Below are positions 3,606 to 63,127 of a DNA stretch of 64,000 nt, piece after piece. Position 1 is the stretch's first letter. Each line of letters opens with the position of its first letter. Source of the stretch: Alkalibacillus aidingensis. Its GTDB lineage: Bacteria > Bacillota > Bacilli > Bacillales > Alkalibacillaceae. Below the pieces are notes generated by a model that saw only the letters and a list, made by a program, of their open reading frames with translations, was not told the DNA's origin and did no database searches. The DNA lies in NCBI RefSeq assembly GCF_014595945.1, contig NZ_JABXWU010000001.1, forward strand, positions 434,001 through 498,000. The letters are read 5' to 3'. The translations under genes were made by a program, and so were the position numbers.

Positions 3606-4493
3606 TTAACTACTCGTCATAACACCCCCATTGACATGAATAATTTGACCAGTAACATAGTTTGAATCATCACTTGCTAAATAAACATACGCTGGTGCTA
3701 ACTCATAAGGCTGACCGGCTCTTTTTAAAGGAGTGTTGTATCCAAACGTTTTCATATCCTCTGCAGGAAAACTTGCCGGAATAATCGGTGTCCAAACCGG
3801 ACCTGGTGCTACACCGTTTACGCGTATACCATAATCAGCTAAGTCTAAAGCTAATGATCGAGTAAATGTAGTATTGGCCCCTTTGGATGTTGAATAATCC
3901 AAATTACCCTTCTGGCCCTCATAAGCAACTGCTGAAGTCGTATTAATGATCGAACTCCCTGCTTTTAGATAAGGTAATGCTGCCTTTGATAGGAAAAAAT
4001 AGGAGTATACATTGGATTGAAATACCCTTTGAAGTTGTTCGGCTGTGATATCTGTTAACATATTTTGAGGATACGCCTCTGCACAGTTATTGACGACAAC
4101 ATCAATCTTTCCAAATGTTGAAAGCGTTTGGCTGACTACATAGTTACTCGTTTCTTCTTGCCCTAGATCCCCAGGTATTGCTATGCAACGTTGGCCTATC
4201 TCCTCTATTCGTTGTTTGGTCTGTTCGGCATCTTTATGTTCATTTAAATAAATGATTACAATATTAGCGCCTTCCTTGGCAAACGCATAAGCAGTCGCTC
4301 TTCCGATACCACTATCTCCTCCTGAAATAATAGCTACCTTGTCCTTTAATTTTCCCGTTGGTTGAACATAAGGGGATTCTGATATAGGTCTAGGTTCCAT
4401 TAAATATTCAAGTCCCGGATGGTATTTTTGATGTTGTGCTGGAAACTGAACGGGAATTCTCTCCACCTTTTCAACGTATTCATCCTGATTCAT
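3606..4493 (-). CDS. Short-chain dehydrogenase/reductase, stress-type (YdaD/YhdF-like)
   Basis: A 295-residue SDR with an N-terminal extension of about 45 residues (KYHPGLEYLMEPRP) typical of the general-stress SDR branch. The cofactor motif GGDSGIGRA follows near residue 58. NNCAEAYP is a variant of NNAG. The active site is Ser (TTSAVAYEG) plus YSTSKG (Tyr and Lys). The C-terminus ends with VTGQIIHVNGG. It should be a cytoplasmic NAD(P)-dependent oxidoreductase; the substrate cannot be read from sequence. It stands alone, 96 bp from the oxidoreductase gene. Confidence 0.85.
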   Translation of the reverse strand: MNQDEYVEKVERIPVQFPAQHQKYHPGLEYLMEPRPISESPYVQPTGKLKDKVAIISGGDSGIGRATAYAFAKEGANIVIIYLNEHKDAEQTKQRIEEIGQRCIAIPGDLGQEETSNYVVSQTLSTFGKIDVVVNNCAEAYPQNMLTDITAEQLQRVFQSNVYSYFFLSKAALPYLKAGSSIINTTSAVAYEGQKGNLDYSTSKGANTTFTRSLALDLADYGIRVNGVAPGPVWTPIIPASFPAEDMKTFGYNTPLKRAGQPYELAPAYVYLASDDSNYVTGQIIHVNGGVMTSS

Positions 4494-4553
4494 ACTCGAT
4501 CTCCTTTATATATTAGTGTAAGTACTGCTTTACAATATGTGATTCAACTTATT

Positions 4554-4928
4554 TTATTGACTCTCACGCTTCAAATAATCCACGAGCTTCGTTCCAACTC
4601 CGACAAATGTTTCCAGAATTGCTTGCGCTCCTGCAATGGATAGAACAAATATTACTGGGAGCGCAATATTGGGTATAAGTAGATAACCAATCGCAATAAA
4701 AATAGCACTCCAAACACCTGCACACCAATAACAATTTAATAAATAGCCGAATTTGGATGTTGGTACCTTCTTGACTTTCTCAAGCCCATAGTCATCTTTA
4801 ATCTTTTTTCTCTTTAAAAAAGGTTCCCTAATAAATTCGGTTATTTTGTCAAATACAATTAAATGTGTAAATCGATAACTCGCTAATATGATCATTAAAT
4901 AAGTCATCCAATCAAGTTGTTCTAACAT
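4554..4928 (-). CDS. DUF1360 (YngL-like) membrane protein
   Basis: A 124-residue protein with a hydrophobic N-terminus (TYLMIILASYRFTHLIVFD), the family signature SYRFTHLIVFDKITEFIREPF, a conserved CYWCAGVW motif near residue 66 and two more membrane helices. DUF1360 proteins such as B. subtilis YngL are small integral membrane proteins associated with sporulation in some Bacilli, with no known activity. The gene is apparently monocistronic, with its start at 4928 behind AAAGGAGC. Confidence 0.75.
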   Translation of the reverse strand: MLEQLDWMTYLMIILASYRFTHLIVFDKITEFIREPFLKRKKIKDDYGLEKVKKVPTSKFGYLLNCYWCAGVWSAIFIAIGYLLIPNIALPVIFVLSIAGAQAILETFVGVGTKLVDYLKRESQ

Positions 4929-4998
4929 AAGAAAGCTCCTTTTAACTTAGTATTTATTAATTTTTAACTAAACTTAAACTTCATGCACCTTAAACAGA

Positions 4999-5030
4999 AA
5001 AAACACGACCCCAATTGGAATCGTGTTTTT
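4999..5030 (-). terminator. Rho-independent terminator of nirK
   Basis: An inverted repeat AAAAACACGA / TCGTGTTTTT lies 24 bp past the nirK stop. On the minus strand the stem is followed by a T-rich run. Confidence 0.8.
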
Positions 5031-5053
5031 AATAACCTTTCTAGATACTTTAA

Positions 5054-6091
5054 TTATTCAGTTACCTCTAAAAGAGCAGCCGCTCCTTTTTCGACATGGT
5101 CAAATTGGTGAGTAACAACTTTGTATGTTCCTGCTTCTTCTACAGTGAATTCAACAACCGCTCCTCCACTAGCTGGGAGTGTCACTGTTTGTAACCCTTT
5201 CATATGGTTCTCTGGATTACCATCAATGTAAACGTCATCTAGGACGGTGCCAACAACATGGAATGAACTTATTTCATTTGGTCCCACATTGTTAATATAC
5301 ATTCTAATGGTTTCTCCCACTTTGGCTTGTAATGGCTCATCTTTTAGAGCTTTAGTGGTACCGTTAGTATTAATATCATCTTCATTTAGTGCTTTTGCTG
5401 AGAAAACGACTTGTGTTGGCTCTTCATTCATCATTGCATCTAAATCATCATAGGGATACCATTCGTTTTGAATTAACGCAAATTCACGGTCTACCTGATC
5501 ATCAGTTGGATAACCATCTTCCGGCATAACAATGATCACGCCATGCATCCCGTTAGCTATATGTCTTAATACAGAGTCTGTTCCACAATGATACATAAAT
5601 ACACCAGGACTATCTGCCGTATAGGTGAATGTACCTTCTTCGTTAGGCATCACGTTGGCAAATTTTTTATCCGGTGCCGCTTTAACAGCGTGGAAATCCA
5701 TGCTATGTGGTACGGCAGGGTCTAAATTTTCTAGTGTGAAATTAATCGTATCACCTTCATTAACTACCACTAATGGGCCAGGTGCTTCCCCATTAAATGT
5801 CCAAGCTTTGTAATTAACACCTTTATCGATCTCAATGTCCGTTATTTGTGAAGTCATTTTAATATTGACTTCATCTTCACTTACTCTTTCCATTTCAACA
5901 GGAACTGGTTCTTGATTCAACCCTTCGTGAGGTTCAAAGGTATTCGGTTCATCCTGCTCATCAGTTTCTTCAGTTTCACTTTGATTCACATCGTCATTCT
6001 TCGCATCATCATTACTTTGAAATCCATAGATACTTACCATAACCACAAGGACAGAGACAGTTAATAATAAAATAAATAGTCCCTTTTTCAT
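5054..6091 (-). CDS. nirK: Copper-containing nitrite reductase (NirK type)
   Basis: A 345-residue membrane-anchored exported protein with one N-terminal helix (residues 5–23) and an acidic linker, followed by two cupredoxin domains. It would reduce nitrite to NO outside the membrane. All expected residues are present: type 1 copper H129, C169, H177, M182; type 2 copper H134, H168, H328; catalytic D132 (PHSMDFH) and H278 (SSFHVVG). Val280 replaces the Ile seen next to the catalytic His in proteobacterial NirK; from memory Geobacillus NirK shares this. The spacing H-x2-D-x-H and C-x7-H-x4-M fits the family. An FNR-like box precedes it. It is divergent from a putative NO reductase operon. A different multicopper oxidase activity is unlikely given the intact nitrite site. 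Confidence 0.88.
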   Translation of the reverse strand: MKKGLFILLLTVSVLVVMVSIYGFQSNDDAKNDDVNQSETEETDEQDEPNTFEPHEGLNQEPVPVEMERVSEDEVNIKMTSQITDIEIDKGVNYKAWTFNGEAPGPLVVVNEGDTINFTLENLDPAVPHSMDFHAVKAAPDKKFANVMPNEEGTFTYTADSPGVFMYHCGTDSVLRHIANGMHGVIIVMPEDGYPTDDQVDREFALIQNEWYPYDDLDAMMNEEPTQVVFSAKALNEDDINTNGTTKALKDEPLQAKVGETIRMYINNVGPNEISSFHVVGTVLDDVYIDGNPENHMKGLQTVTLPASGGAVVEFTVEEAGTYKVVTHQFDHVEKGAAALLEVTE

Positions 6092-6145
6092 CTTGATCCC
6101 TCCAACTTAGTTATTAGTAAGAGAAGGAAGTATGCTCCCTTTTCT

Positions 6146-6197
6146 TACTTTTATCTTAAGAGAGAACAGGGTTTGTATTTGTGAAATAGTTCACAAA
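6146..6197 (-). promoter_or_regulatory. FNR-type promoter of nirK
   Basis: A perfect palindrome TGTGA-N6-TCACA (6180–6195, extended by TT/AA to 6178–6197) matches the B. subtilis FNR consensus. On the minus strand a −10-like TAAGAT occupies 6153–6158, which places the start near 6146 and the dyad centre at −41.5, the classic class II activator position. No −35 is needed in such promoters. It implies activation under oxygen limitation; a CRP-family NO sensor would fit equally. Confidence 0.75.
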
Positions 6198-6345
6198 TTA
6201 AGAGCTATTCTTTGTCTAAATAGTGAAATATCTTAAAAAGTGATTTATTCCGTCCGTTTTCGTTTATTTTACGTTTTCTTTCATAATGTTGTTGTCCTAG
6301 TAAAGACTATATAAAGATAAATGAACTTATTTAGGAGGAACAAAT

Positions 6346-6600
6346 ATGAGTGAGGAACTACGTGACTATATAAGTGTTGAAGATGAAGACGGTAATGAAA
6401 GGGAATTTTCAGTAGAAGCTATGTTTGATATGAATGAAGAATCTTACGCATTATTAAAAGATGAGAACGAAATATTCGTCATGAGGGTTGAAGATGAAGG
6501 TGATGATCAGTATTTGGTCCCGATTACTGACGATACAGAAAAAGAATCGATACTGGATGCCTATGAGGTGGCTATAGCTACAGAATTGGACGAGGAATAA
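6346..6600 (+). CDS. DUF1292 (YrzB-like) acidic protein
   Basis: An 84-residue, strongly acidic protein (YISVEDEDGNEREFSVEAMFDM near the start, a DEDGNE-type opening typical of DUF1292). It lies behind a good AGGAGGAAC site. It is cytoplasmic, with no membrane segment. The usual DUF1292 gene YrzB sits beside the Holliday-junction resolvase YrrK, so this is a stand-alone copy. It is separated by only 3 bp from the following unknown gene and is probably cotranscribed with it. Function is unknown. Confidence 0.75.
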   Translation: MSEELRDYISVEDEDGNEREFSVEAMFDMNEESYALLKDENEIFVMRVEDEGDDQYLVPITDDTEKESILDAYEVAIATELDEE

Positions 6601-6603
6601 TCG

Positions 6604-6984
6604 ATGGATCGAGAAAAATTAATTGAAACACTCCCTTCTCACATCAAACAGAAGTACATGAAAGAAGTTGAAGGAATGACATTCACCAAGAACTTTCGCT
6701 CAGCTACTGCTGAAGAGTGGTATATTTTTTTACCTAACTATCAGGATCCTATTAACTCTGGTGCAGCCGGTAAAGCCATTATTCATTATGACTTATTCGG
6801 AAATCGGGATGTTTTTATTAATACGACGATTATTTTCGATGATCCAAATCTTTATAACTCAGAGCTACATTCTCTTGTTTATTTGATTGCAGATGAAATT
6901 GTTAATCGTCTTGTGGGATATGCTGACACACTCCTCTCTGTCCATTCAGGCGAGAATTCCTTTCGAGCTGAATATATTCAATGA
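6604..6984 (+). CDS. Conserved-looking hypothetical protein (126 aa)
   Basis: I do not recognise this protein. It is a 126-residue soluble mixed alpha/beta sequence with a central stretch GAAGKAIIHYDLFGNRDVFINTTIIFDD and a helical C-terminal half (HSLVYLIADEIVNRLVGYADTLL). It has no Cys, signal peptide or membrane helix. It follows the DUF1292 gene by 3 bp and shares its transcription unit, between nirK and the NO reductase-like operon. Whether it has any role in nitrogen-oxide metabolism cannot be told from sequence. Confidence 0.6.
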   Translation: MDREKLIETLPSHIKQKYMKEVEGMTFTKNFRSATAEEWYIFLPNYQDPINSGAAGKAIIHYDLFGNRDVFINTTIIFDDPNLYNSELHSLVYLIADEIVNRLVGYADTLLSVHSGENSFRAEYIQ

Positions 6985-7012
6985 GTTGTGGTTTTATCTA
7001 CAGCTCATTGAT
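6979..7012 (+). terminator. Possible weak terminator
   Basis: An imperfect stem CAATGAGTTGT / ACAGCTCATTG overlaps the stop of the preceding gene. The T-tract after it is poor (ATTCCTCTCT), so termination is only probable. Confidence 0.4.
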
Positions 7013-7053
7013 TCCTCTCTCCCCTTCTATATTTTCTTAATTAATGAAATATT

Positions 7054-7105
7054 TTGACTAACAGTGACCTGGCTCACTTATAATTTAGGGTCAATTTGGT
7101 AAACT
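7054..7105 (+). promoter_or_regulatory. Promoter/operator of the NO reductase-like operon
   Basis: A dyad AGTGA-N6-TCACT (7063–7078) can be read in two ways. First, it sits inside the 19-bp spacer between TTGACT (7054–7059) and a perfect TATAAT (7079–7084), an operator position typical of MerR-family control or of repression. Second, its centre (7070.5) is exactly 41.5 bp upstream of a start at 7112 served by TAAACT (7100–7105), the same geometry as the FNR box of nirK. The dyad differs from the FNR consensus only at the two outer bases. Confidence 0.6.
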
Positions 7106-7145
7106 TCCTTTGAAATGTATTGAAAACAAAGGGGGTACTTAATTA

Positions 7146-8012
7146 TTGATTAAATATTTAGCTGGTTTTTCTATTTTGCTGACGTACATATTAATCGTTT
7201 TTGGTGGATATGTAGCTTCATCTGAGTCGGGAATGGGATGTGGACCTGAATGGCCACTTTGTAATGGAAAGGTTATTCCCACTTTGGAGGGTGAAACACT
7301 TATTGAATTTGGCCATAGGTTTGTCGGATTAATTCTAGTCTTTCTCATCGGGTTATTATTCATTCGTCTTCGTAAAGAATCACATAGTCAATTGATGTTA
7401 AAAGCTGCGAATTGGATGGTTGTCCTCCTTACAATTCAAGTGTTAGCTGGGGCGATTGTAGTTATTTTAGACCTTCCTCCGATCGTTGTAACACTTCACT
7501 TATTGGTAGCGATGTTATTTATTTCAATACTCATTTGGGTGTTTAGACAAGAACAACAAAGGAGAATCCATCTACCCTTCCAATTAGAGCGTCAATCTAT
7601 TAAAAGGAAATTAAATCTATTAATCTTCTTAGTCTTTTTAACAATTGGTTTAGGAGCTTATATTAAGCATCAGACATTCGGATTATCTTGTCATTGGTTA
7701 TATTGTGGAGATACTTTACTTCCTAGAGAGTTCCCTCAGTTACTACAGACACTCCACCGTTTTCTTGCTCTCGTGACACTACTCTATATATTCTATTTCT
7801 GCTTAATTTCCTACGCTAAGAAAATGGGAGCCTTTTTGAAAAGACGCTCCTTACTAATGGTCTTAGTCATTTTATTACAGTTATTAAGTGGAGTCTTGAC
7901 GATTGTTACAAGTATCAGCATCTCATGGGCCGTGATTCATTTAGCGATTGGAACCTTATTACTACTCGTGATCGTGGATACACGGATTCTACTAAACTCA
8001 CCTAATGAATAA
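7146..8012 (+). CDS. ctaA: Heme A synthase-like membrane protein (COX15/CtaA family)
   Basis: A 288-residue protein with about eight membrane helices in two four-helix halves. It begins at TTG behind a GGGGG site. It keeps the CtaA marks: an extracytoplasmic Cys pair in the first loop (C32 and C39, GMGCGPEWPLC), the catalytic E-x2-H-R (E54, H57, R58 in IEFGHR), heme-ligand His in each half (TLHLL, TLHRFLA, VIHLAIG) and a second Cys pair (LSCHWLYC). CtaA converts heme O to heme A in the membrane. It is the first gene of a tight five-gene operon, which suggests that the terminal enzyme encoded here carries an A-type heme. No ctaB gene is in the window. Confidence 0.8.
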   Translation: MIKYLAGFSILLTYILIVFGGYVASSESGMGCGPEWPLCNGKVIPTLEGETLIEFGHRFVGLILVFLIGLLFIRLRKESHSQLMLKAANWMVVLLTIQVLAGAIVVILDLPPIVVTLHLLVAMLFISILIWVFRQEQQRRIHLPFQLERQSIKRKLNLLIFLVFLTIGLGAYIKHQTFGLSCHWLYCGDTLLPREFPQLLQTLHRFLALVTLLYIFYFCLISYAKKMGAFLKRRSLLMVLVILLQLLSGVLTIVTSISISWAVIHLAIGTLLLLVIVDTRILLNSPNE

Positions 8013-8027
8013 AAGGAGGAATCGAAT

Positions 8028-8093
8028 GTGGCACAACCTGCATGGATGATTACATTAAATGTGCAACAACCTGCATGGATTATCACATTACTA
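8028..8093 (+). repeat. 33-bp tandem duplication at the start of subunit II
   Basis: Codons 1–11 (encoding V/M-AQPAWMITLN) and 12–22 (VQQPAWIITLL) are two copies of one 33-bp unit with a few substitutions. Both units begin with GTG, but only the first has a ribosome binding site, so the duplication lengthens the region before the first membrane helix by 11 residues. Confidence 0.85.
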
Positions 8094-8576
8094 GTCAGTT
8101 CTCTAGTGTTTATTGTCTTTTGGTTTATTTTGAAAAACTCTAAAGATCGGGAAGAAGATTACGATGGGATTAAGAAAAAAGGATTCAAGATACGAAATGT
8201 CTACTTTGTGATTCTTTTTTCAGTACTCTTAGGAGCTACATTCTATACTATAACAGATTTGCCTTATGACCGGCCTCCTGAATTTGTCAATGCAACTGAA
8301 GTTGAAGTTGAAGCCTTACAATTCGGTTGGGATTTTTCACAAGAGGAGTTTGAGGTTGGAGAAAAATACGCATTTCATGTCACCAGCCAGGATGTGAACC
8401 ATGGAATCGGGTTTTATGATGAAGACATGATGCTACTTACGCAAACTCAGGCGATGCCAGATTATACTAACACGGTCTATGTGGAATTTGAAGAGCCAGG
8501 TACGTACCAAATTTTATGTTTAGAGTACTGTGGTGCGGCTCACCACCTAATGATTCATGAGATTGAAGTCAAATAA
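8028..8576 (+). CDS. CuA-containing subunit II of a B-family heme-copper reductase
   Basis: A 182-residue protein with two membrane helices (about residues 15–36 and 57–75) and an extracytoplasmic cupredoxin domain. The CuA site is complete: H125 (DVNHGIGFY), then C164-x3-C168-x3-H172-x2-M175 (LCLEYCGAAHHLM). It would accept electrons from cytochrome c and pass them to subunit I. The start is GTG behind AAAAGGAGGAATCGAAT; an ATG two bases upstream is out of frame and stops after seven codons. The first 22 codons are a tandem duplication (separate entry). It lies 15 bp after ctaA and 21 bp before subunit I. Confidence 0.85.
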   Translation: MAQPAWMITLNVQQPAWIITLLVSSLVFIVFWFILKNSKDREEDYDGIKKKGFKIRNVYFVILFSVLLGATFYTITDLPYDRPPEFVNATEVEVEALQFGWDFSQEEFEVGEKYAFHVTSQDVNHGIGFYDEDMMLLTQTQAMPDYTNTVYVEFEEPGTYQILCLEYCGAAHHLMIHEIEVK

Positions 8577-8597
8577 CTTAAAAGGGGTTGAAATCAT

Positions 8598-10082
8598 ATG
8601 GACAATCCACTTGTCAAAATAAATCCAATGACCAAACGATTGGTCACATTTCCAGTCTTAATGAGTGGTCTTTTCATCTTTTTAATGATGGCTTTTGGAG
8701 TTATCATGTTATTAAATCAAGCTAATATGATCCAAATTAATATGGGAATGTTTTATCAACTTATGACCATACATGGTACTGGAATGATTGGTTTTGCTGC
8801 CTTAGGTGCTGCCGGGATTATGTGGTATTTTCTAAGTCAGTATGTTGAATTGAACCGTCGTGTATTTCAAATCAATCTTATTCTATTTTTGCTCGGTGTT
8901 GTTAGTGTATTAGTAGGAATATTTAAATATGATTTTGCTGGAGGATGGACTTTCTTATATCCACTACCGGCTATGTCTGGTGGTATGTGGGCTGAAGCAG
9001 GAGCAACCCTTTACCTAGGAGGAATGCTTCTGATTGGATGTGGTTTCCTATTATTATTTCTAGAAGTTTCCCGTGCGATCATTTCTAAGTATGGAAGCTT
9101 TGCACAATCACTGGGTTGGCCCCACATTTTTGGATTAAGGAAAGAGGAAGATGCGCCACCTCCTACAGTTGTAGCGAGCACAATGGTTTCAATTGTTAAT
9201 ATTACAGCTCTAATTGCCGGCGCAGCAATATTAGTAATGAGTTTAATCAACTTATACAATCCTTCTTTTACGATTGATCCGTTATTAGCTAAGAATCTTA
9301 TTTATGCATTTGGTCATATTTTTGCGAACTCAATTATCTATATGGGCGTTATACTTGTCTATGAAATGTTACCTAGATATACAGGTAGACCATGGAAGTC
9401 TTATAAAATCTTTTTAATCGCTTGGACGCTATCAACTATTTTCACGATTATCATTTATCCACACCATCTATTAATGGATTTTGTCATGCCAAATTGGATG
9501 TTAATTATCGGTCAAGTTTTATCATATATGAACGGACTTCCCGTACTAATTGTTACGGCTTATGGAGCTTTAATGATTGTTTATCGCTCAGGTATTAAGT
9601 GGGATGTGACATCAAGTTTTATTATGTTATCTATGTTTGGCTGGGTGATTGGGGTTATTCCAGCTATCATAGATGCTACGATTATTGTAAACCAGGTTAT
9701 GCACAATACTCAGTGGGTTCCAGGACATTTCCATTTATACATGGGTATTGGGGCAACCGCGATGATTATCGGTTTTATGTTTTACCTAACGAAGTTTGAT
9801 GCGAATCGGACAGATCAGGAAATTGATCGAGCTAGTTTTTGGTCATTTATCATCGGGATCCTTGGCCTCTCAGCATCCTTCCTCTATTCTGGTCAAATAA
9901 GCACCCCTAGAAGATGGGCTGAGCATGTACCAGAGTGGATTGCACCAAATATAATTGGCGTCATTTTCGGTACGATAGCTACTTTGGCGATGCTAGTTTT
10001 CGTATTTCGGTTCATTGTCATCAGTCATAAAATTGGTAAATCAGAAACTAGCTTTGATGAGTCAACTAGGAAGATCTCATGA
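8598..10082 (+). CDS. B-family heme-copper subunit I, probable nitric oxide reductase
   Basis: A 494-residue, 12-helix membrane protein. The metal ligands are complete: low-spin heme H59 and H379, high-spin heme H377 (WVPGHFHL), CuB H240 (FGH) and H289/H290 (YPHH). The 49-residue spacing H240–H289 equals that of Thermus ba3 oxidase and WVPGHFHL is a B-family signature. Four residues after H240, where oxidases have the cross-linked Tyr (HPxVY), this protein has Asn (HIFAN, N244). Loss of that Tyr is known from NO-reducing members of the superfamily, so NO reduction to N2O is inferred rather than O2 reduction. Of the ba3 K-channel tyrosines the first is Val and the second is kept (Y255). Overlap with sco is 4 bp. 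Confidence 0.8.
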   Translation: MDNPLVKINPMTKRLVTFPVLMSGLFIFLMMAFGVIMLLNQANMIQINMGMFYQLMTIHGTGMIGFAALGAAGIMWYFLSQYVELNRRVFQINLILFLLGVVSVLVGIFKYDFAGGWTFLYPLPAMSGGMWAEAGATLYLGGMLLIGCGFLLLFLEVSRAIISKYGSFAQSLGWPHIFGLRKEEDAPPPTVVASTMVSIVNITALIAGAAILVMSLINLYNPSFTIDPLLAKNLIYAFGHIFANSIIYMGVILVYEMLPRYTGRPWKSYKIFLIAWTLSTIFTIIIYPHHLLMDFVMPNWMLIIGQVLSYMNGLPVLIVTAYGALMIVYRSGIKWDVTSSFIMLSMFGWVIGVIPAIIDATIIVNQVMHNTQWVPGHFHLYMGIGATAMIIGFMFYLTKFDANRTDQEIDRASFWSFIIGILGLSASFLYSGQISTPRRWAEHVPEWIAPNIIGVIFGTIATLAMLVFVFRFIVISHKIGKSETSFDESTRKIS

Positions 10083-10687
10083 GCAAAAAGGAAGGCAAAT
10101 TATCTTTTATCATTGTGGTTATTGGCCTGACTATTCTCTTCATAGCAACTGATTCTTTTCAAGCCTTTACGGCCGAACAAGCTAGAAGAGTTCAAATAGA
10201 AAAGACTCAGCCACAACTTAAAGATGTGACTTTTGAGGATAGTGAATCAGAAACATTCAGGTTAGGCGAGAGCGAAGATGTTTATACAATTGTAACATTT
10301 ATATACACTAGATGTGGTGATATTTGCCCTGCCATATCGATGAATTTTCGGGATTTATATGAAGACATTCCAAGTGAATTTCTAGACGAAAAGCTCCAGT
10401 TACTAACGGTAAGCTTTGACCCTGAATATGATACGCCTGATCAGTTGACTATGTATCAACAATCGATCGGTGCAGATGGTGAAACATGGAGAATTGTCCG
10501 TATTGAAGATCAACAAGAGCTTCAACAGTTTCTCAATCAAGCAGGTGTCATTGTCATACCTAACGAAGAAGGTGGATTCGCTCATAATGCGGCTTTTTAC
10601 CTTATAGACCCTAATGGACGTCTAATTAACATTTTTGATTATGACCAGCCTGAAAGTGTTGTAAATCATTTAGAGAAGATCTTTTAA
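10079..10687 (+). CDS. SCO1/SenC-family copper chaperone
   Basis: A 202-residue thioredoxin-fold protein anchored by one N-terminal helix (residues 9–23), with the domain outside the membrane. The copper site is C79-x3-C83 (YTRCGDICP) plus H169 (GGFAHNAAF), as in SCO/YpmQ proteins that load or reduce the CuA centre. Its start overlaps the subunit I stop (ATGA), so translation is coupled. This supports assembly of the CuA site of the upstream subunit II. Confidence 0.88.
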   Translation: MSKKEGKLSFIIVVIGLTILFIATDSFQAFTAEQARRVQIEKTQPQLKDVTFEDSESETFRLGESEDVYTIVTFIYTRCGDICPAISMNFRDLYEDIPSEFLDEKLQLLTVSFDPEYDTPDQLTMYQQSIGADGETWRIVRIEDQQELQQFLNQAGVIVIPNEEGGFAHNAAFYLIDPNGRLINIFDYDQPESVVNHLEKIF

Positions 10688-10701
10688 AGGGTGCAGAGAA
10701 T

Positions 10702-11286
10702 ATGAAAACGATCAAGTTTCTGTTATACAGCATAACCTTATTTCTTATTTTAACCATCTCACCTGTCAGTCAATTTCTAGAGTCAAGCATGGTCGGACTC
10801 ATGCTTATTCAAATACCTGGCTTGACTCTAAGTGGATATTGGTTAGGTAAATGGTTAAAGATGAATCATTTAGTTATTTTTAAGTCTTACAATCATTCAG
10901 GTATTCCCGGAATCTTGATTGCTATCTTCACTAGTATTTATTGGATTCTACCAAGAATGGTTGATGGTGCATTAACAGAACCAATCTTGATGGTAGCCAA
11001 ATATATAACCATTCCTATCCTAATAGGCTTACCTATTGCATGGAGTTGGAAATCACTTCATAGTGTAGCGAAATGGTTTATTATCACTAATGGGATCTCA
11101 ATGCTTTTTGTAATGGGATGGCTTTATCTTAATACGAATATTCGTGTCTGTAACAACTTTCTGATCTCACAGCAACAACTATTAGGAAATATTTTATTTT
11201 ATGGATCCATTAGTATCTTTTTAATTCTTGTTTTATTTGCATTCATGGGCCCAGCTCAATTGAGTCGTGAGAAACCTCAACTCTAG
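10702..11286 (+). CDS. Unrecognised membrane protein, last gene of the NO reductase-like operon
   Basis: A 194-residue protein with about five or six membrane helices (LLYSITLFLILTISP, SGIPGILIAIFTSIYW, YITIPILIGLPIAW, ISMLFVMGWLYL and a last one near residues 160–183). It contains a few conserved-looking polar spots (QIPGLTLSGYWLGKW, NIRVCNNFLISQQQ). It starts 14 bp after sco and ends in the operon terminator. I cannot assign a family. Its position suggests an assembly factor or accessory subunit of the heme-copper enzyme, which is inference from context only. Confidence 0.65.
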   Translation: MKTIKFLLYSITLFLILTISPVSQFLESSMVGLMLIQIPGLTLSGYWLGKWLKMNHLVIFKSYNHSGIPGILIAIFTSIYWILPRMVDGALTEPILMVAKYITIPILIGLPIAWSWKSLHSVAKWFIITNGISMLFVMGWLYLNTNIRVCNNFLISQQQLLGNILFYGSISIFLILVLFAFMGPAQLSREKPQL

Positions 11287-11300
11287 GGTTGAGGTTTTCT
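11272..11300 (+). terminator. Terminator of the NO reductase-like operon
   Basis: A perfect 10-bp stem AAACCTCAAC / GTTGAGGTTT, with loop TCTAGG carrying the stop codon of the last gene, is followed by a short T-rich run. Confidence 0.85.
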
Positions 11301-11399
11301 TATGCTTAATGTGATCCAAATTTTCACACTTAGACAACTTACCAAAATGCCTTTTTATGTCATATACATAGGATGATGACTAAAAGGAGGTAATTCGTT

Positions 11400-12341
11400 T
11401 TGAATGATGAAGCAATAAGGCATTTTATAGAAGAGTTGGATGAGTGGATTTCAGAGTTAGAAGACAAATGGTCTCGCTTCTTAGCTTCACACGAGGGTGA
11501 TCTGCGGGAACAAGATGAATGTGTTTCTTTTAACCAATTGCTACAATCCGTAATCCTACAGATTGATGATCTAAAAGCCAATCCAGAGACTATTACCAGT
11601 CAGACAGCGCGAGAATTACAAAGTCAAGCATCTGAACTTTTTGGGCGCTGGAATAAACTGATCCATACTCAACCTTTGAAAGAATCATCCAATAATAATA
11701 AGAATGAGGCTCGCTCTGTTCCAATCGGTGGCCATGAACTTCCTCCCCTTCCCTATGACTATGATTCTCTTGAGCCACATATAAGTGGACGGATTATGCG
11801 TCTACATCATCAGGACCATCACCAAAGCTATGTCGATGGGTTAAATAAAGCCGAAAAGGAAATGCAAAAAGCCCGTAAGAAAAACGACTTTGATTTAATT
11901 AAACATTGGGAACGTGAAGCAGCCTTCAACGGAGCTGGTCACTACCTTCACACTATTTTCTGGAATGTCATGTCTCCAGATGGTGGTGGTGAGCCAGGTG
12001 GGGAATTGTTAGATGAATTTAACCAATCATTCGGTAGCTTTGACGCCTTTAAGAACCATTTTACCGAAGCAGCCAATCATGTTGAAGGAGTTGGTTGGGC
12101 GATATTGGTATGGGCACCACGATCTCATCGCCTTGAAATTCTACAGGCAGAAAAACACCAAAACCTTTCCCAATGGGACGTCATCCCTTTATTAGTTTTA
12201 GACGTCTGGGAGCACGCATACTATTTACAGTATGAAAATAAGCGTGGAGACTATGTAGATAACTGGTGGAATGTGGTTAATTGGGATGAGGTTGAAAAGA
12301 GATATTTAGCAGCAAAGGATGTTAAATGGAAGGCCTATTAA
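11400..12341 (+). CDS. sodF: Fe/Mn superoxide dismutase with N-terminal extension (SodF-like)
   Basis: A 313-residue protein. The first 110 residues are a charged helical region (EELDEWISELEDKW) absent from classic SOD. The rest is a Fe/Mn SOD with metal ligands in LHHQDHHQSYVDG (His), GHYLHTIFW (His) and LVLDVWEHAYYLQY (Asp, His). This layout matches B. subtilis SodF. It starts at TTG, 9 nt behind AAAAGGAGG; no ATG is nearby. It dismutates superoxide in the cytoplasm. The metal cannot be read from sequence with certainty. Confidence 0.88.
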   Translation: MNDEAIRHFIEELDEWISELEDKWSRFLASHEGDLREQDECVSFNQLLQSVILQIDDLKANPETITSQTARELQSQASELFGRWNKLIHTQPLKESSNNNKNEARSVPIGGHELPPLPYDYDSLEPHISGRIMRLHHQDHHQSYVDGLNKAEKEMQKARKKNDFDLIKHWEREAAFNGAGHYLHTIFWNVMSPDGGGEPGGELLDEFNQSFGSFDAFKNHFTEAANHVEGVGWAILVWAPRSHRLEILQAEKHQNLSQWDVIPLLVLDVWEHAYYLQYENKRGDYVDNWWNVVNWDEVEKRYLAAKDVKWKAY

Positions 12342-12356
12342 CTTATTAATCAGTAA

Positions 12357-12395
12357 AAGGCTGGGACTAAATAGCAATAAATAGGTCCCAGCCTT
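12357..12395. terminator. Terminator between convergent genes
   Basis: A 12-bp stem AAGGCTGGGACT / GGTCCCAGCCTT with one G·T pair and a 15-nt loop. Convergent genes end on both sides. Confidence 0.85.
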
Positions 12396-12413
12396 AATTA
12401 ATTTCGACCACCC

Positions 12414-13505
12414 TTAACTTGACATTGGAACTTGGTCAAGTACTCGGCCTTCTATTCGTTCAAAAATATCATCAAGACTTCGCCCGGTTATCGTTAAGCC
12501 ATGATTCTTAAGTCCAATAATTGCTCGTGATGGGTCTTCTTCATTCCTAATTAAATCTGCTACTGTTTCGGCTAGCTGAATGGTTCCACAAGGGTAATTG
12601 ATTTCGGTCGCTTGTATACCTTCAATCCAAGCATGAATATGAACAATTGCTCCGACATCAGGGTGTTCTTTATAAATCATCCAGTGCTCAATCGCATCTA
12701 CAGAAGCCCGTTTCGGCGCCACATTAGGTGGAATGCTAATCTCCATGGCATTCTTCTCTTTATTAAATCCTTTAATATATAGCATGTCTTTGCCAATTTC
12801 TTTCATGTTAGCTTTATTAATTCCACTTGCGCTCATCCAAAAGCTACTTTCATCGTGTCTTGTGCTAAGGTTTCCATAACTAAGGCCACCGATACCATAT
12901 AACTTCTTAAGATGTCTCATATCACGCTTAGATAAGTACTTCTCTAATGGAAATGGTGCAGGGAGTAGGTTCATCTCATCTAATCTTTTGCCTGAAAAAG
13001 CTAACCTTTCCGTAGCTTCGTTTCCATTCCATAACTCTTCATCAAGATCTTCGTTAAACTCATTGTTAATAACGAGTTGTGATGAGGCAACTGGTTCTAA
13101 CCTTTTGTACACTTTATTGAAGAATTCCTCTTCTTCACCTTTCTGATAGCCTATATTATAAAAGCCTTGCTCTGGTGTAACAAAATATACTTCAATACGT
13201 CTACCATCATTAACAATATATAATAAATGGTTTGCCAATGAACGAATCAGATAAGGGTAGGCTGATTGGAATGTGTTTGTTGGTTTTTCATTTTTCTCCA
13301 TCACTGAAATCACAAATGTTGCTTGCGCTTGTCTTCTAAAAGGTCTTGGTTTCTCTGGGTCAAGAACATTAAAAACCACTCTTAAATCATCTTCTGATGA
13401 ATCACAGAATTCATAATCTCTTTGAGAAAATTGCTTTTTCAACCCTTCCGTAAACCATGTTAAAAAGTCACTTCTTTCGGCTCCAGTAATTGTAAAGCGT
13501 TTCAT
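12414..13505 (-). CDS. Class II aldolase/adducin-family protein with unknown N-terminal domain
   Basis: A 363-residue protein. Residues 1–160 are an unrecognised domain (RPFRRQAQATFVISV). The C-terminal half is a class II aldolase/adducin domain with YGNLSTR, a phosphate-binding ASGINKANM-like segment, a zinc-type H-x-H (IVHIHAW) and a third His in GLKNHGLTITG. Such domains cleave or epimerise sugar phosphates. It is the second gene of a pair with the upstream MDR dehydrogenase (14-bp gap, good AAGGAGGAATAAAAC site), so sugar or polyol catabolism is plausible. The substrate is unknown. Confidence 0.75.
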   Translation of the reverse strand: MKRFTITGAERSDFLTWFTEGLKKQFSQRDYEFCDSSEDDLRVVFNVLDPEKPRPFRRQAQATFVISVMEKNEKPTNTFQSAYPYLIRSLANHLLYIVNDGRRIEVYFVTPEQGFYNIGYQKGEEEEFFNKVYKRLEPVASSQLVINNEFNEDLDEELWNGNEATERLAFSGKRLDEMNLLPAPFPLEKYLSKRDMRHLKKLYGIGGLSYGNLSTRHDESSFWMSASGINKANMKEIGKDMLYIKGFNKEKNAMEISIPPNVAPKRASVDAIEHWMIYKEHPDVGAIVHIHAWIEGIQATEINYPCGTIQLAETVADLIRNEEDPSRAIIGLKNHGLTITGRSLDDIFERIEGRVLDQVPMSS

Positions 13506-61102: not shown

Positions 61103-61765
61103 CTATTCTTCCAGCCAGTTATAATAAACGGACGTATCGCGTTTTTGTTTAGGTTTTGTTTGTTGTTGTCCTTGTCCTTGATGAGGTTGTTTAACATCTT
61201 TAACAGATCTAATACCTTTTTTCTTCCACTCATTTAAAATTCGATCTATGTAACGAAAGTTTAACTTCCCCATTAGGACAGATTCTCTAAGAGCTGCTTT
61301 GATTAATGGTGGTTTAAACTGATCTTCATCTAACCAGTGACTAATCGTCTCAATCTCTATAGGTGATAGTGCTCTTGCAAATTCTTGTTCAAATAGCTGA
61401 AATAATTTACCTTCTTCTTCTCTTGTAGATGTTTCTGCAACATCGTATAACGCTTCAAACAAAGGGGTTAGTGAATACCACTCATATGTAGCGTTTTCTT
61501 CATCGGTATGTTGTTCAATCAATAAATAGCCATTATTTCTTAGTTTCTTAAGAACATTGGCCACTTCATTAGCAGTTAAAGTCATATAGCTCGAAATTTG
61601 GTCAAACGATGGTAACCATTCACCTAATCTTTGAAGGTTAATAATCTGTAAAATAACTACCATATCATTTTCTTCCAAATGAAGCTCCCGATAACCCATT
61701 AACAACCGACTAGGTATATTCACTTGTTCTGTTAATAACTTTTGGTAGGAAAATGGTAATTGCAT
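61103..61765 (-). CDS. dnaD: Replication restart protein DnaD
   Basis: A 220-residue DnaD: N-terminal winged-helix oligomerisation domain (RLLMGYRELHLEENDMVVILQI, PSFDQISSYMTLT) and C-terminal DnaB-like domain (FEQEFARALSPIEIETISHWLDED, FRYIDRILNEWKKKGI), a Gln/Lys-rich linker and the terminal YYNWLEE. It helps load the replicative helicase with DnaB/DnaI at oriC and stalled forks. It lies 13 bp from nth in the conserved order. Confidence 0.94.
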   Translation of the reverse strand: MQLPFSYQKLLTEQVNIPSRLLMGYRELHLEENDMVVILQIINLQRLGEWLPSFDQISSYMTLTANEVANVLKKLRNNGYLLIEQHTDEENATYEWYSLTPLFEALYDVAETSTREEEGKLFQLFEQEFARALSPIEIETISHWLDEDQFKPPLIKAALRESVLMGKLNFRYIDRILNEWKKKGIRSVKDVKQPHQGQGQQQTKPKQKRDTSVYYNWLEE

Positions 61766-61796
61766 GGCAACCCGTCCTTTTTTATGAATAGAAAGA

Positions 61797-61822
61797 GATG
61801 ACTCAATCGTAAATGAGTCATC
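61797..61822 (-). terminator. Possible terminator of asnS
   Basis: A 9-bp stem GATGACTCA / TGAGTCATC; the following TCTTTCTATTC is a weak T-tract, so readthrough into dnaD is possible. Confidence 0.55.
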
Positions 61823-61834
61823 CCTAGTAGTTTA

Positions 61835-63127
61835 TTATGGGTATAGACGATTAAGCAGGCGCGGAAATGGAATGGTTTCACGAATATGTTCAATACCTGT
61901 AATCCAGGCCACTGTTCGCTCCAACCCTAATCCAAAACCAGAGTGTGGAACTGTACCGTATTTACGTAGTTGTAAATACCACTCATATGCTGGGCCGTCC
62001 AAATCGTGCTCTTTATATCGCTCGGCCATTAGTTCATAATCATCAATACGTTCAGAACCACCAATGATCTCCCCGTAACCTTCTGGAGCAATTAAGTCAG
62101 CGCAAAGAGCTACGTTTGGATTATCTGGGTCAGGCTTCATATAGAAGGCCTTGATTTCTACTGGAAAGTGAGTGATGAAAACCGGTTTGTCATACGCTTC
62201 GGCAATCGCTGTTTCATGTGGTGCACCAAAGTCATCTCCCCAGTCAATATCATTAAACCCTTGATCTTTTAAGAACTGAATAGCATCATCATACGTAATT
62301 CTCGGAAATGGTGCTTGTATATTTTCTAATTTAGAAGTGTCACGATCTAAAGTCTCTAATTCAATCTTACAATTTTTAAGTACAGATTGTACAACGAATG
62401 CAACATACTCCTCTTGCATTTTTAAGCTGTCTTCATGATCCATAAATGCCATTTCAGGTTCAATCATCCAAAACTCAATTAAGTGTCTTCTGGTCTTAGA
62501 CTTTTCGGCGCGAAAAGTAGGGCCGAATGAGAATACTCTTCCTAAAGCCATAGCAGCCGCTTCCATATATAATTGTCCACTCTGAGATAAATAAGCGTCC
62601 TCATCAAAATATTTTGTATGGAATAATTCTGTTGTTCCTTCTGCTGAGGCACCAGTCAAGATCGGTGGATCGACTTTGACAAAACCTTCGTTATTAAAAA
62701 ACTCATAAGTAGAACGGATAATTTCATTACGAACCTTCATAATCGCGTGTTGTTTTTTAGAGCGTAACCATAGATGACGATGGTCCATTAAAAATTCAGT
62801 ACCATGCTCTTTAGGAGTAATTGGATAATCTTCTGCTTCTTGAATGACTTCTAGATCAGTTACTTGAAGCTCATAACCAAGAGGACTACGAGTATCTTCA
62901 ACTACCGTCCCTGTAATATATAGAGATGATTCCTGTGTAATCGTTTTTGCTTGTTCAAACACCTCTTCAGAGACAGCTGATTTGGCTACAACCCCTTGGA
63001 TGAATCCAGTACCATCTCTCAGTTGTAAAAAGGCAATTTTCCCACTTGATCGTTTATTATGTAACCAGACACCAATAGTTACTGTTTCGTTTAGATGTTG
63101 GTTGACATTTGCAATAGTTGTTTTCAC
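61835..63127 (-). CDS. asnS: Asparaginyl-tRNA synthetase
   Basis: A 430-residue class IIb aaRS. An OB-fold anticodon domain ([32 protein letters not shown]) is followed by the catalytic domain with motif 2 ([28 protein letters not shown]) and motif 3 ([15 protein letters not shown]). It charges tRNA-Asn. It starts 12 bp after the aspB stop, so aspB-asnS is an operon linking aspartate/asparagine metabolism and translation. Confidence 0.96.

Follow-up and report, generated by a model that had tools for sequence, protein, structure and literature searches.

Gene content and phylogeny point to an sNOR-type nitric oxide reductase beside nirK in Alkalibacillus aidingensis

Introduction

In 2012, Heylen and Keltjens described two gene clusters for CuA-type nitric oxide (NO) reductases (NORs) in Bacillus azotoformans LMG 9581 (PMC3475470). 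According to that paper, the small-subunit N-terminal sequence of the type I cluster (BAZO_06394-06409) matches that of the purified enzyme, which was reported to have two subunits. The type II cluster (qCuANOR type II, BAZO_04695-04710) encodes a subunit I that is short, has 12 helices, and carries Asn in place of Tyr, together with a two-helix subunit II, a SenC/SCO protein, and a protein of 4 to 5 helices; in Geobacillus the type II cluster is linked to a gene for conversion of heme o to heme a, and the authors suggest that the enzyme contains heme a. Here, we analyze a 64,000-nucleotide stretch of the Alkalibacillus aidingensis genome (the window; contig NZ_JABXWU010000001.1, positions 434,001 to 498,000) in which a plus-strand run of genes (7146-11286) lies beside nirK, the gene for a copper nitrite reductase. 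We propose, with a probability of roughly 0.8, that this run encodes an NOR of the type II kind, from the B-family heme-copper line, that acts on the NO produced by NirK.

The names bNOR and sNOR, which reportedly go back to Murali et al. 2024, stand here for types I and II. Bell et al. 2024 use both names, and the enzyme type is not new, being in print there (PMC11388526) and in the 2012 paper (PMC3475470). Table A4 of PMC8756737 lists Silicibacter and Geobacillus as holders of sNOR; the active-site letter in that table is Gln in eNOR and Asp in gNOR. The NO-reductase reading of the window enzyme is well supported; judged from its sequence, the enzyme belongs to a type that has been described but is biochemically unproven, and it lies in a telling location.

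Results and Discussion

Active site of subunits I and II

Subunit I retains six metal-ligand His residues (H59, H240, H289, H290, H377, and H379). In place of the Tyr that is cross-linked to a CuB His in ba3 and other B-family oxygen reductases, it has Asn (N244), which aligns without gaps with the Tyr of Thermus ba3 (GHIFAN versus GHPIVY). From H240 to H289 and H290 there are 49 and 50 residues; this stretch, too, aligns without gaps, and the spacing in Thermus ba3 is equal. Subunit II retains all six CuA ligand-site residues (H125, C164, E166, C168, H172, and M175). The initial annotation, made from the letters of the window alone, had described the six intact His residues, the Asn, the ba3-like CuB spacing, and the complete CuA site, and all four are borne out.

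Asn occupies this position in all 81 sNOR rows of the alignment (the window plus 80 named loci, which are the best 80 of 238 confirmed), as well as in Ruegeria and Thermomicrobium. Because Asn is found in 81 of 81 rows while all six ba3 rows have Tyr, Asn244 is more than chance. Thermus ba3 resembles the window enzyme in its six His residues, CuB spacing, and CuA site but differs in having the cross-linked Tyr and three of five proton-channel positions that we checked. Thermus Y244, S309, and T315 are lost in the sNOR rows (V251, V316, and G323), and Y248 and T312 are kept (Y255 and T320).

A model of subunit I (predicted local distance difference test score, 84.5) has 12 long helices, counted by hand after two broken ones were joined, and at 494 amino acids (aa) the subunit has the short, 12-helix form of qCuANOR type II. 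We also observed that Y248, Y287, Y310, and E256, in the region around CuB, are near-invariant in sNOR and absent from bNOR and from almost every ba3 row.

Phylogeny and gene order

The initial annotation had proposed a phylogeny of subunit I with several NOR types and ba3 oxidases. Our tree of 44 rows covers ba3, bNOR, two qNOR, and sNOR sequences, with 19 of the 80 named loci representing sNOR. The window sequence is placed in one clade with sNORs of Bacillota, Pseudomonadota, and Nitrospinota, including BAZO_04705 and the Ruegeria protein, and is separate from bNOR and ba3; support is 99/99 with Thermomicrobium and 95/99 without it, in a tree in which long branches meet, including the sNOR and bNOR/ba3 stems. 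The bNORs, namely, BAZO_06399 and the one encoded elsewhere in the source genome, group instead (100/98) with ba3 rows of Bacillaceae that carry the Tyr. By parsimony, Asn would have replaced Tyr twice.

With subunit I outside the Tyr-bearing ba3 clade, the earlier proposal of a noncanonical CuA-bearing NOR acting on the NO of NirK is still the best reading. The proposal had also invoked CuA-dependent NORs of Bacillus; the CuA-NOR type fits, but the purified enzyme is a bNOR, and by the tree the window enzyme belongs to a parallel sNOR line. The window enzyme lies outside the BAZO_06399 clade, and we rejected its identity with the purified type I enzyme. We likewise rejected a qNOR, as the window sequence is distant from the two qNOR rows in the tree and its helix-VI motif is different.

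The run begins with ctaA (heme A synthase) and ends with a gene for a six-helix membrane protein, here called TM194; its coordinates and those of the other features are given in Table 1. On each count of the 2012 description, the cluster agrees with type II as found in B. azotoformans (BAZO_04695-04710) and Geobacillus (GTNG_1516-1520): the same Asn, a short subunit I, a CuA subunit II with two helices (judged by eye in the window), and adjoining SCO and multihelix protein genes in the same order. As in the window, a heme-A-synthase-type gene is linked in Geobacillus GTNG_1516-1520, which we compared by its published description (PMC3475470). Locus L049, whose subunit I gene has the coordinates of BAZO_04705 in Table 2 of that paper (contig40 61342-62823), has a gene order identical to that of the window (subunit II, subunit I, SCO, TM194), and the two subunits I are 58 to 59% identical. 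Locus L140 has the coordinates of BAZO_06399 (bNOR).

The bNOR of B. azotoformans shares with the window a CuA subunit II, Asn for Tyr, and downstream homologs of SCO and TM194. It differs in its separate clade, in a longer subunit I, and in a subunit II with one helix (PMC3475470) rather than two. The SCO of the window is 42% identical to that in the bNOR cluster of the same genome. The sNOR of Ruegeria (Silicibacter) pomeroyi is like that of the window in its clade, Asn, and SCO and TM194 genes; unlike it, the Ruegeria enzyme (47% identity) is adjoined by an Rrf2-type regulator and a formate/nitrite transporter, and neither nirK nor ctaA is annotated in the DNA retrieved around it.

The Ruegeria homolog is annotated as a cbb3-type cytochrome c oxidase subunit I, and KEGG assigns coxA to both bNOR and sNOR (PMC11388526), as the initial annotation had anticipated when it expected automated pipelines to call such an enzyme an oxidase. 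Nitrous oxide (N2O) is a greenhouse gas, and the enzyme most likely converts NO to N2O; annotation as an oxidase therefore means that N2O-producing capacity is missed.

NirK and its association with sNOR

NirK of the window aligns to solved nitrite reductases, the best being 3x1e_A (E 1.3e-148), the enzyme from Geobacillus. It retains H129, D132, H134, H168, C169, H177, M182, H278, and H328, which, by analogy with other NirKs, provide the type 1 and type 2 copper ligands and the catalytic Asp and His; the earlier statement that every copper and catalytic residue is present agrees with this alignment. The protein has an N-terminal hydrophobic segment without Cys. In this it differs from the NirKs of B. 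azotoformans and Geobacillus, which are lipoproteins (PMC3475470).

We examined co-occurrence in 397 genomes from the order that the source genome shares with Schinkia azotoformans, calling sNOR and nirK at E < 1e-60. In counts that take no account of shared ancestry, 22 genomes had sNOR, 38 had nirK, and 19 had both (odds ratio 119, p 4e-19), with nirK in 19 of 22 sNOR genomes versus 19 of the 375 without sNOR. The corresponding odds ratios were 15 for bNOR (nirK in 24/61) and 9 for the Tyr-ba3 gene (34/208, hand count). The 61 bNOR genomes comprise 16 with sNOR and nirK, 3 with sNOR alone, 8 with nirK alone, and 34 with neither (odds ratio 23). By genus, nirK occurs in 10 of 12 sNOR genera, there being 21 nirK genera among 136.

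Physical linkage was also found. In 9 of the 80 named loci (74 of which have at least 3.5 kb past subunit I), nirK is on the same strand 0.9 to 1.9 kb past subunit I. In the window, nirK instead points away from the run, from which two small genes (6346-6984) separate it, a divergent layout seen in 0 of the 80. Other neighbors recognized in these loci were SCO (38), TM194 (49), a formate/nitrite transporter (7), ctaA (5), and an Rrf2-type regulator (4). Clustering of nirK with NOR genes has been noted for Geobacillus, the NOR type being unnamed in the text concerned (PMC3475470); the same source has nirK isolated in B. azotoformans, whereas it adjoins the sNOR run in the window. No further paper reporting nirK-sNOR linkage by its title or abstract opening was found in the literature searched.

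In most of loci L079 to L107, which are rich in Neobacillus and Cytobacillus, no SCO or TM194 was recognized beside subunit I. Two loci from records titled Arthrobacter and Pseudomonas (L057 and L118) resemble those of Bacillaceae, and their assemblies are possibly misnamed or contaminated.

TM194, a partner shared by sNOR and bNOR

The most interesting part of the cluster is TM194. Among 377 genomes we detected 77 matches, 54 of them within 2.5 kb of bNOR, 18 within 2.5 kb of sNOR, and 5 near neither, of which one was full length (in the fragmented genome G217) and four were partial (G205, G281, and G323). Nearly all TM194 genomes (57/60) carry bNOR or sNOR. Conversely, TM194 lies beside 17 of 22 sNOR and 54 of 61 bNOR genes, some of the missing neighbors possibly being in genomes outside the 377-genome sample. 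Among the loci that we scanned, it was beside 4 of 4 bNOR genes and 0 of 7 Tyr-ba3 genes (L002, L129-L132, L135, and L136). Examples are found at window positions 10702-11286, L049:9086-9670, and L176:116-688.

Window TM194 is 37% identical to BAZO_06409 over 159 residues. The 2012 paper gives the two B. azotoformans genes different names (cbaC2 and cbaD1), and its relevant part states no homology between them (PMC3475470). We built a TM194 tree of 45 rows, drawing on 27 of the 49 named loci in which the protein was recognized. All 16 bNOR-type proteins are united in a single clade (100/99), which is nested in a clade with 15 sNOR-type proteins (100/100), with inner forks at 98/81 and 98/85; the bootstrap was unsettled, and the outgroup rows did not separate along a single branch. 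An earlier tree, with only three bNOR-type rows, gave the same picture. Given that TM194 of bNOR is nested within the sNOR type while the catalytic subunits stay apart, capture of TM194 by the bNOR operon from an sNOR operon fits these trees best, and replacement may instead have occurred in the opposite direction.

Invariant TM194 residues include Q37, P39, W81, P84, R85, D88, K100, and C150. We found no fold match in the PDB at E < 0.001 and no curated family above its cut-off. With an E limit of 1, 10 of 21 members matched DUF1404 (Pfam), but weakly (lowest E, 1.5e-5), and the match was under the cut-off in the one member shown with scores. In the literature searched, no paper mentions DUF1404, and none reports, by title or abstract opening, a partner shared by sNOR and bNOR. 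The purified B. azotoformans enzyme was reported to have two subunits (PMC3475470), which favors a role of TM194 in maturation over one as a core subunit. Tentatively, and at somewhat less than even odds, we propose that TM194 serves only NORs of the Asn-type, CuA-bearing kind, as a dedicated maturation factor (or as a subunit that is loosely held), that it passed from sNOR into the separately evolved bNOR operon, that its presence tells NORs from look-alike O2 reductases, and that the window enzyme is a heme-A NOR fed by NirK.

Proposed route and alternatives

From the genes, residues, phylogeny, and gene associations described above, we infer the substrate, heme type, electron donor, and TM194 role of the enzyme. 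A c-type cytochrome (or menaquinol) would donate electrons to CuA of subunit II, from which they would cross a low-spin heme (H59/H379) to a center formed by a heme (proximal H377) and CuB (H240, H289, and H290). Oxygen reductases need their Tyr for O-O cleavage; with Asn244 in its place, this center would couple two NO to N2O. The linked ctaA points to heme A at one or more of the heme sites, and SCO would load copper. The genome encodes two NarGs, and NarG, NirK, and sNOR would together take nitrate to N2O, the expected route, with bNOR sharing the NO step. The route would halt at N2O because NosZ was not found: its five matches in the genome were all below the cut-off and covered the cupredoxin end.

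A variant of this scheme, which we consider less likely than not, is that sNOR mainly detoxifies NO in micro-oxic conditions and that bNOR carries out the respiratory NO step. Nineteen of the 22 sNOR genomes, the source genome included, also carry bNOR, as this variant would have it, and Rrf2-type regulators, to which the NO sensor NsrR belongs, adjoin sNOR in the four named loci and in Ruegeria. A perfect FNR-type box at nirK (Table 1) suggests instead that the NO source is expressed anaerobically, and the location of nirK inside the sNOR cluster of nine relatives also speaks against this variant.

Several points weigh against assignment of the window enzyme to the NORs. PMC11388526 counts cNOR, qNOR, bNOR, and eNOR as characterized and sNOR as proposed, and we found no report of activity from purified sNOR in the literature examined. 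The co-occurrence statistics ignore shared ancestry, the Tyr-ba3 gene is also enriched with nirK (though less), and 3 of 22 sNOR genomes are without nirK. No nirK lies in the fetched stretch of 71 of the 80 named loci, and that of the window is divergent and outside the operon. A fold search with the subunit I model returned oxidases as the nearest solved folds, with no NOR among the 50 rows listed. In Nitrosomonas europaea, sNOR genes were up 2.7- to 10.8-fold when O2 was limiting, and it was suggested on this occasion that the enzyme may be a terminal oxidase of high affinity (PMC6967387).

Whether the substrate of sNOR is NO or O2 is disputed. An sNOR that is a high-affinity O2 reductase tolerating NO, retained by denitrifiers on account of NO poisoning of ordinary oxidases, would be consistent with the N. 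europaea data, the fold search, and the linked ctaA, a gene usual for oxidases. We nevertheless judge this improbable. All 81 rows have Asn for Tyr, the source genome encodes caa3 and a Tyr-bearing ba3 already, TM194 is common to sNOR and the characterized bNOR and absent from the seven Tyr-ba3 loci scanned, and the association with nirK is much stronger than for Tyr-ba3. TM194 and the nirK association provide genome evidence independent of the single Asn, and these data point to Bacillaceae in which the NO/O2 question can be settled.

A disguised oxidase, with the role of the missing Tyr taken over, as in cbb3, by another one, either Y248 (on helix VI) or Y287 (immediately ahead of the CuB His pair), is very improbable: the two residues are close in sequence to CuB ligands and conserved in 81 and 80 of the 81 sNOR rows, with Leu/Met and Gly there in four bNOR and six ba3 rows, but the position of the helix-VII Tyr that carries the cross-link in cbb3 (six residues ahead of the His pair, as seen in L128) is Thr283 in the window and either Thr or Val throughout the 81 rows. 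The initial annotation had named a Tyr from another helix as a possible objection, and of this the cbb3 position is excluded by Thr283, which leaves the sNOR-specific Y248 and Y287.

Other features of the locus and genome

The source genome (2.84 Mb, 25 contigs, completeness 98.95) has as COX1-family matches a caa3 (Tyr), a ba3 (GHPLVY), the bNOR (GHTLVN; C1:832894-834588), the sNOR of the window, and a weakly matching 412-aa protein. Neither qNOR nor cNOR was among them, and the same search recovered two S. azotoformans qNORs, whose positions agree with Table 2 of PMC3475470. The 412-aa membrane protein (G000:C7:2438-3106; L005:1084-2322) scores 40.0 bits for COX1 versus a cut-off of 34.8, with the matching pieces out of order. 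A second ctaA copy lies at C1:153549-154391, making two in all.

Table 1. Coordinates of the open reading frames and sites at the sNOR locus, in window positions
Feature	Position	Strand	Remarks
nirK, copper nitrite reductase, 345 aa	5054..6091	-	TIGR02376 E 2e-59, under its cut-off (201.6 vs 296.3 bits)
Perfect FNR-type palindrome, TGTGA-N6-TCACA	6180..6195		88 bases ahead of nirK start codon
DUF1292 protein gene	6346-6600		Between nirK and ctaA
126-aa protein, no assigned family	6604-6984		Between nirK and ctaA
FNR-like palindrome with one mismatch, AGTGA-N6-TCACT	7063..7078		67 bases ahead of ctaA start codon
ctaA, heme A synthase, 288 aa	7146..8012	+	PF02628 E 8.3e-40
Subunit II, 182 aa	8028..8576	+	Complete CuA site; two N-terminal hydrophobic segments (judged by eye)
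Subunit I, sNOR / qCuANOR type II (predicted), 494 aa	8598..10082	+	
Asn244 codon	9327..9329	+	Replaces the cross-linked active-site Tyr
SCO/SenC copper chaperone, 202 aa	10079..10687	+	
TM194, six-helix membrane protein	10702..11286	+	No curated family; homolog of BAZO_04695 (cbaC2) and BAZO_06409 (cbaD1)
Mn/Fe superoxide dismutase	11400-12341		N-terminal extension; directly after the NOR run

Motifs of the TGTGA-N6-TCACA type are the FNR consensus. Exact TGTGA-N6-TCACW occurs at 13 distinct sites in the genome, that of nirK included (21 strand hits, compared with 6 for the reversed pattern); one of the 13 lies some 2 kb ahead of a narG, and two precede the ba3 oxidase genes. The site upstream of ctaA is weak, because one-mismatch sites are no commoner in the window than in shuffled sequence. 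Directly upstream of the Tyr-ba3 oxidase genes are these two exact boxes (G000:C22:112941-112998) and a gene for a Crp/Fnr-family regulator (L002:83-613).

An Rfam search of positions 4000 to 12500 returned nothing above gathering scores. The superoxide dismutase that follows the run has about 110 additional N-terminal residues, and a superoxide dismutase gene was recognized beside sNOR in one of the 80 named loci (L108).

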